A stretch of 64,000 bases of DNA, taken from positions 558,001-622,000 of the forward strand of contig NZ_CP039740.1 in NCBI RefSeq assembly GCF_005153485.1. Reading direction: 5' to 3'. Both the position numbers and the translations under genes were made by a program. The stretch comes from Pseudolabrys sp. FHR47. GTDB lineage: Bacteria > Pseudomonadota > Alphaproteobacteria > Rhizobiales > Xanthobacteraceae. The notes beneath the pieces are model-generated. The model did no database searches. It was not told the DNA's origin and saw only the letters and a program-made list of their open reading frames with translations. Positions 20,111 through 20,518 of this stretch are shown here, in pieces (position 1 is the first letter of the stretch; each line of letters opens with the position of its first letter).

Positions 20111-20518
20111 TTACTCAGGTTGGTCATCACAATCAAGCAGGATATCGACCGTACAGAGCACGGAATCGCTGGCGATCGGCTTGCCGAGCACGGCGTGAGC
20201 GCCCGAGTCGAGGCAATCGTGCGCCAACGGTTCGTCGGCGGAATCCGCTACGAGCAGTATTTTTACGCCGGGCAGGCGGGTCGCCATGTCGCCGAGGACC
20301 CTTACGCCTTCGTCCCTGACGATGTCCAGTCCCAGCAGAACGAGATCCGGTCTTCGCTCGCGACCTTTGGCATAAGCTTGCTCAAGGCTCGTCAATGCGT
20401 AGGTTTCATTTTCGTTGTGCAGGATGAAGCTCAACGCGGAGCGAATGATCTCGTCGGTTTCGACGACGAAGATGCGCCTGAGGTCGCCCACTCGGGAAGG
20501 TTCGAATCTGATCTGCAT
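20111..20518 (-). CDS. Receiver-like protein lacking the phospho-acceptor Asp
   Basis: The 135-residue protein is a stand-alone CheY-like domain: [14 protein letters not shown] near the start and the conserved lysine in AVLGKPIA. The segment that should carry the phosphorylated aspartate reads PDLVLLGLD, so Gly replaces Asp and it is probably not a classical phospho-switch. It is clearly paralogous to the protein at 60424-60858, and both lie divergent from a nifH copy. The ATG at 20518 is chosen because the paralogue has the same MQI start; a longer upstream reading would extend about 67 residues into the promoter region. Followed by sufE. Function unknown. Confidence 0.8.

Follow-up and report, generated by a model that had tools for sequence, protein, structure and literature searches.

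A gene divergent from nifH in the 64-kb window (the whole stretch of DNA analysed here) encodes a stand-alone protein with a receiver fold that, judged from its sequence, is almost certainly unable to take phosphate at the usual place. It belongs to a family that extends over the alpha-, beta- and gammaproteobacteria, keeps its place beside nifH and predicted NifA-type control, and has a conserved surface other than that of a canonical response regulator.

A receiver domain without the phospho-acceptor Asp

The gene, PR1 (20111..20518, minus strand), encodes 135 amino acids that make up one receiver domain. The match to PF00072 scored 50.9 bits against a Pfam cut-off of 30.2, and no NCBIfam model reached its cut-off. 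PR1 has the (beta/alpha)5 receiver fold. Its structural phospho-acceptor place, at the end of strand 3, holds Gly63 instead of Asp, the switch place at the end of strand 4 holds Ala91 instead of Thr or Ser, and the Lys at the end of strand 5 is present as Lys113. Residues 1–11 are disordered in the structure model. The sequence-only reading had recognised a receiver without acceptor Asp in this gene and had named an acidic residue at the structural acceptor position as the observation that would speak against it; no such residue occurs there, and Gly63 does occupy the position. A longer start (202 amino acids from 20719) was dismissed because the family start and a sigma-54 site indicate 20518. 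Also as described earlier, PR1 is divergent from a nifH gene (nifH1, 20947..21837, plus strand; PF00142, 436.5 bits), which is followed by nifD and then nifK.

Further pseudo-receivers beside nifH, which the same reading had thought worth looking for, were found both as a second copy in the window and as family loci elsewhere. The second copy, the paralogue PR2 (60424..60858, minus strand), encodes 144 amino acids with Gly64 at the acceptor place, Cys92 rather than Thr or Ser at the switch place, and Lys114 at the end of strand 5. It is 45% identical to PR1 over residues 1–128 (E 2e-30 in a search of the genome) and matches PF00072 with 61.9 bits (cut-off 30.2). Among 53 NCBIfam models that matched PR2, none of the 25 listed did so at its cut-off, and an assignment to NblR (NF045914) found no support, with 28.1 bits against a cut-off of 300. 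PR2 is divergent from the second nifH of the window (nifH2, 61301..62191, plus strand; TIGR01287, 464.9 bits). The two nifH genes differ at 15 of 891 bases and at 2 residues. Next to an identity of just 45% between the adjoining pseudo-receivers, this makes the nifH copies look homogenised. The 28 bases upstream of the start codon are also identical in nifH1 and nifH2. In the 35 genomes of the same genus that were examined, nifD was absent, so the nif region of the window may have been acquired; the best match to PR1 among these genomes had an E value of only 9.6e-7, and relatives within the genus were dismissed. There is no jump in GC content along the window, and no tRNA genes were found in it.

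The family and its altered active site

A protein search with PR1 returned 36 proteins, including itself, at an E value of 1e-8 or better, and a search with PR2 counted 1551 whose E value was no higher than 1e-12; the best 120 of these were examined. A genome scan yielded 44 loci, 39 of them from the family; the other five (L075–L079, E 3e-7 to 2e-4) were excluded because they had no match to PR1, PR2 or NifH at 1e-8. A further set of 28 family loci comprises PR2 of the window (L081), one locus of genome G303 and 26 loci from genomes of the window's own bacterial family. The two sets partly overlap and are not additive (L080 and L045 encode the same protein). One more locus, L082 of G099 (E 5.9e-18), has one internal stop, no nifD in the genome and no nifH in the locus, and stands outside the 28 loci and the 68 proteins discussed next. 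The 39 loci come from Hyphomicrobium, Methylocella, Methylosinus, Methylocystis, Afipia, Bradyrhizobium, Novosphingobium, Alteraurantiacibacter, Telmatospirillum, Azoarcus and Aromatoleum, and from metagenome-assembled genomes, some labelled Gammaproteobacteria or Burkholderiales. A plasmid of Methylococcus (Gammaproteobacteria) carries a member, annotated as 'response regulator', beside nifHDK.

None of the 68 locus proteins has Asp at the acceptor place, which is Gly in 62, Ala in 4 and Ser in 2; the six proteins with Ala or Ser form one methanotroph group in the tree (support 99/94). The 157 aligned rows of listed homologues gave the same picture, with Gly in 156 and Ser in one. As a control we used the NtrC receiver, which shares the fold and can be aligned, from 30 of the same genomes (three of the 30, L188–L190, score just below NCBI's NtrC cut-off). 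Asp, Ser/Thr and Lys were present at the three places in 30/30 each. Only 16 of the 68 pseudo-receivers have Thr or Ser at the switch place, and the Lys, kept in 62, is lost in 6, so constraint on the old active site is not uniform. One member, L121 (G740), is unlike its relatives at residues ~70–92, as if out of frame, after which the family pattern resumes.

Phosphate could still be accepted by another residue, such as Asp65 in PR1 or the Ser found at the same place, two positions after the Gly, in 37 of the 68 proteins. We regard such hidden phosphorylation as very improbable: the place is not conserved (Ser 37, Gly 23, Asn 3, Ala 3, Asp 2), for which reason Asp65 was dismissed as a displaced acceptor, and Thr or Ser at the switch place is the exception. 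The emptied pocket might instead bind a small molecule or metal, or a Cys at the old switch place might sense redox state. The first pocket place is acidic in 68/68 proteins, Cys occupies the switch place in 107 of the 157 homologue rows, and genes of redox and sulfur type lie nearby (see below). Yet PR1 itself has Ala at this place and 50 of the 157 rows lack the Cys, which is thus no family rule, and a ligand or redox sensor seems improbable.

Conservation has shifted to the tail and to helices 1 and 5

PR1-type branches are long (W1 0.99, L124 3.65 or more) and PR1 is absent from relatives, as might be expected of a decaying, functionless relic of a response regulator. The substitution rates argue for purifying selection instead, with dN/dS values of 0.05–0.34 in the twelve closest pairs and a median of 0.32 over 1271 pairs (L124 left out). 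Promoter and position are likewise conserved over three classes, and decay is hard to credit as an explanation for this gene. The N-terminal part is the more constrained: pN was 0.106 for residues 1–42 and 0.331 for the rest, whereas pS was 0.57 and 0.54, respectively (L124 left out).

Comparison with NtrC from the same 30 genomes showed that overall identity is similar (0.52 for the pseudo-receiver, 0.50 for NtrC) and that its distribution along the domain is not. Conservation exceeds that of NtrC in strand 1 (0.95 versus 0.39), helix 1 (0.77 versus 0.54), strand 2 with its loop (0.74 versus 0.38) and helix 5 (0.61 versus 0.39), and falls below it in helix 3 (0.29 versus 0.44), helix 4 (0.26 versus 0.55) and strand 5 (0.31 versus 0.82). 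Residues 1–14 of the tail are conserved at 0.67 even though residues 1–11 are those modelled as disordered. Conservation has thus shifted from the phosphorylation and output side, which NtrC preserves, to the tail at the N-terminus and to helices 1 and 5. Measured against this one control family, such a pattern would be expected of a receiver that had given up its phosphorylation and output side and bound a partner through the tail and these two helices. The earlier suggestion that a protein or ligand may be bound in place of phosphate fits the shifted conservation.

The same pattern bears on the possibility that the protein is a decoy or inhibitor that docks through helix 1 on a histidine kinase involved in controlling the response to nitrogen or oxygen and, being unable to take phosphate, blocks or redirects it. 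Helix 1 is the kinase contact in canonical receivers, and here helices 1 and 5 are conserved, in contrast to helix 4 and strand 5, the output face, which have drifted. However, the disordered tail (residues 1–14) is conserved as well and is not needed for canonical kinase contact, and no kinase gene is a constant neighbour within 5 kb behind the pseudo-receiver. A kinase decoy is therefore rather unlikely.

Linkage to nifH

The pseudo-receiver gene is adjacent to and divergent from nifH in 37 of the 39 loci of named genomes, and in 26 of the 28 further family loci; in the remaining four the contig ends first (L040, L065) or its edge intervenes (L105, L107). Among 198 genomes of the window's own bacterial family, 24 have the pseudo-receiver, 49 have nifD and 22 have both (hypergeometric 1e-13, uncorrected for kinship). 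The two genomes with a pseudo-receiver and no nifD (G748, G792) are draft assemblies, in 210 and 440 contigs. Conversely, 27 of the 49 nifD genomes in this family lack the pseudo-receiver, as do 11 of 13 nifD genomes in a sample of 385 genomes from the class. Nitrogenase therefore works without it, and the pseudo-receiver is an accessory nif gene. In the family to which G303 belongs, it is absent from all but one of 199 genomes.

Linkage to nifH does not entail proximity to nifD. Among the 22 genomes that have both, 12 carry a PR2/nifH pair on the nifD contig at a distance of 23 kb to 2.8 Mb: 23–41 kb in ten, including the window's genome, 215 kb for G804 and 2.8 Mb for G651. The remaining ten have nifD and the pseudo-receiver on different contigs, which is not decisive for distance. 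Both types occur together in 4 of the 198 genomes, with PR1 beside nifHDK and sufE, and PR2 beside another nifH.

We also took the regions upstream of nifD from 16 genomes. In seven of them (L191–L197), whose pseudo-receiver gene is elsewhere, nifH precedes nifD and no pseudo-receiver adjoins it; sufE is divergent in two. Four regions (L198, L200, L202, L203) have neither nifH nor PR1 before nifD, and sufE is divergent from nifD; L205 shows neither nifH nor sufE, and L199 and L201 were too short. In L196 and L197, where sufE is divergent from nifH and PR1 is missing, a sigma-54-like site points towards sufE. The pseudo-receiver is thus always beside nifH where this is visible, but not every nifH has one, and the nifHDK copies of L191–L197 indicate that not every nifH needs one nearby.

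A shared, predicted NifA/sigma-54 control region

The region between PR1 and nifH1 contains two NifA-type upstream sites of the form TGT-N10-ACA (20653..20668 and 20703..20718, strandless), flanked by two divergent sigma-54 promoter-like sites that match the consensus. One is directed towards PR1 (20551..20566, minus strand; CGGTACGCCGCTTGCT), 33 bases from its start codon, and the other towards nifH1 (20788..20803, plus strand; TGGCACAGACGTTGCA). The region between PR2 and nifH2 is built in the same way, with NifA-type sites at 61014..61029 and 61044..61059 (strandless) and consensus-matching sigma-54 sites towards PR2 (60929..60944, minus strand; 71 bases from the start codon) and towards nifH2 (61128..61143, plus strand). 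A third TGT-N10-ACA word (61226–61241) lies between the latter site and the start of nifH2.

This arrangement is conserved in the family. We examined 39 intergenic regions, 37 from the loci and two from the window, and took expectations from first-order shuffles. TGT-N10-ACA was found in 35 of the 39 regions (2.7 expected). Sigma-54 sites pointing to nifH were present in 38 regions, against 5.0 expected, and sites pointing to the pseudo-receiver in 37, against 4.6 expected. The site for the pseudo-receiver lies 32–47 bases from its start codon in 33 of the 37 regions; the distance is longer in L062, L067, L074 and for PR2 of the window. No NifA site was detected in 4 of the 39 regions (L046, L071, L072, L073), and no sigma-54 site towards the pseudo-receiver in two (L066, L072). 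Both kinds of site lie upstream of PR1 and of PR2, as in genes of the nif (NifA/sigma-54) regulon, and these consensus sites support a prediction that the pseudo-receiver is under NifA-type control. The claim that PR1 and nifH share NifA sites thus holds beyond this one region, and the view of the protein as a pseudo-receiver of the nif regulon gains support from the predicted sites together with the family-wide loss of the acceptor and the linkage to nifH.

The linkage may reflect only the shared control region. That region would also suit a feedback modulator, made under NifA, which would bind NifA (or RpoN) and adjust nif transcription without itself being phosphorylated; receiver domains commonly act on AAA+ activators. 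The position of the gene, next to nifH wherever the locus is long enough to tell, argues against a target of this kind, and we consider NifA feedback unlikely.

Genes behind the pseudo-receivers

Behind PR1, at a distance of 8 bases from its stop codon, lies sufE (19632..20102, minus strand; PF02657, 152.6 bits), as the sequence-only reading had it. A NifZ-domain protein (19241–19615; PF04319, no NCBIfam match) is encoded next to the suf genes and convergent with sufE. PR2 is followed on the minus strand by genes for an ArsC-like nitrogenase-associated protein (59978..60412; TIGR01616, 180.9 bits, cut-off 109), a SagB-type protein of the nitroreductase family (58305..60017; TIGR03605, 99.7 bits, cut-off 78.4; PF00881) and a protein with rhodanese and ankyrin-repeat domains (57499..58548; PF00581, PF12796). 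The set behind the homologue on the Methylococcus plasmid resembles that of PR2 (57499–60412).

Within 5 kb behind the gene, family loci have sufE (PR1 type), ArsC-like, truncated-haemoglobin-like (judged by eye and annotated so as well) or cysteine-desulfurase-like genes, or genes on the opposite strand; in many loci the very next gene is on the other strand. The neighbours have a redox, sulfur or oxygen flavour, and none is constant. A general link to sufE was dismissed because various other genes lie behind family members and sufE is limited to one subfamily: in the tree, a branch with support 100/98 sets the six PR1 proteins linked to sufE apart, among which the inner order is unsure owing to the long branches of W1 and L124.

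Discussion

From the distribution of conserved residues we consider it probable that the pseudo-receiver is an adaptor that works independently of phosphorylation and docks through the face formed by the tail, helix 1 and helix 5. In the mechanism that we propose, NifA would induce the pseudo-receiver along with the Fe protein; the pseudo-receiver, accepting no phosphate, would dock on its partner with the conserved N-terminal tail and helices 1 and 5; and docking would adjust nitrogenase after the NifA switch-on, most likely at the Fe protein or at a protein that handles it. An adaptor whose preferred target is the Fe-protein branch is thus the reading we tentatively favour. Taken by itself, the Fe-protein branch is a possible target that we put forward with some hesitation. 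The sequence-only reading had named NifA or the Fe protein as what such an adaptor might serve; the gene lies beside nifH, also at nifH copies away from nifD, but the nifHDK copy of seven relatives has none next to it. The more specific idea of a dedicated Fe-protein partner, which would dock through the same face on NifH or on its modifying or loading enzyme and provide post-translational, phosphorylation-independent control of nitrogenase beside or instead of DraT, is doubtful.

DraT, the dinitrogenase reductase ADP-ribosyltransferase (PF07357), is a regulator of the nitrogenase Fe protein and belongs to a Pfam family separate from the pseudo-receiver. In the window's own bacterial family, DraT is found in only 1 of the 22 nifD genomes with a pseudo-receiver and in 19 of the 27 without (Fisher 2e-6), a contrast that is weak when counted by genus (1/9 versus 4/6, Fisher 0.09). 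A general replacement of DraT by the pseudo-receiver was dismissed, as 8 of the 38 named genomes carry both.

Pseudo-receivers are known as a kind. FrzS, KaiA and CikA have receiver-like domains without the acceptor Asp and so resemble the nifH-linked family in having a receiver fold whose usual site is unable to take phosphate; they differ in serving motility or the circadian clock, mostly within larger proteins, whereas the nifH-linked protein stands alone. They are absent among the 50 matches listed, which excludes nothing. CheY-like single-domain response regulators (PF00072) are also stand-alone, and the nifH-linked family differs from them in the missing acceptor Asp, the conserved tail and the drifted output face.

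A nif-linked family of this kind is not described in the literature searched, which consisted of open full texts, most subscription papers being outside its reach, and in this sense the pseudo-receiver is an undescribed nif gene. The portions available of PMC8201639, PMC8594446, PMC4999443, PMC2443382, PMC3916325 and PMC8467165 contain no description of the protein. According to the last two, azo0536 of Azoarcus BH72 lies behind draT, has RpoN and NifA sites and is up-regulated under nitrogen fixation (PMC3916325; PMC8467165). This gene may or may not be a homologue of the pseudo-receiver.

The public annotation 'DNA-binding response regulator' masks this family. Few gene sets have been studied as closely as the nif clusters, which are now being transferred to new hosts. 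An unnamed gene with a control region in common with nifH in three proteobacterial classes would be a regulatory or accessory component that is missing from the known set. The family also offers a natural case of a receiver that has lost its phosphorylation site while selection came to act on another face, which gives a search for the partner a defined surface to start from.
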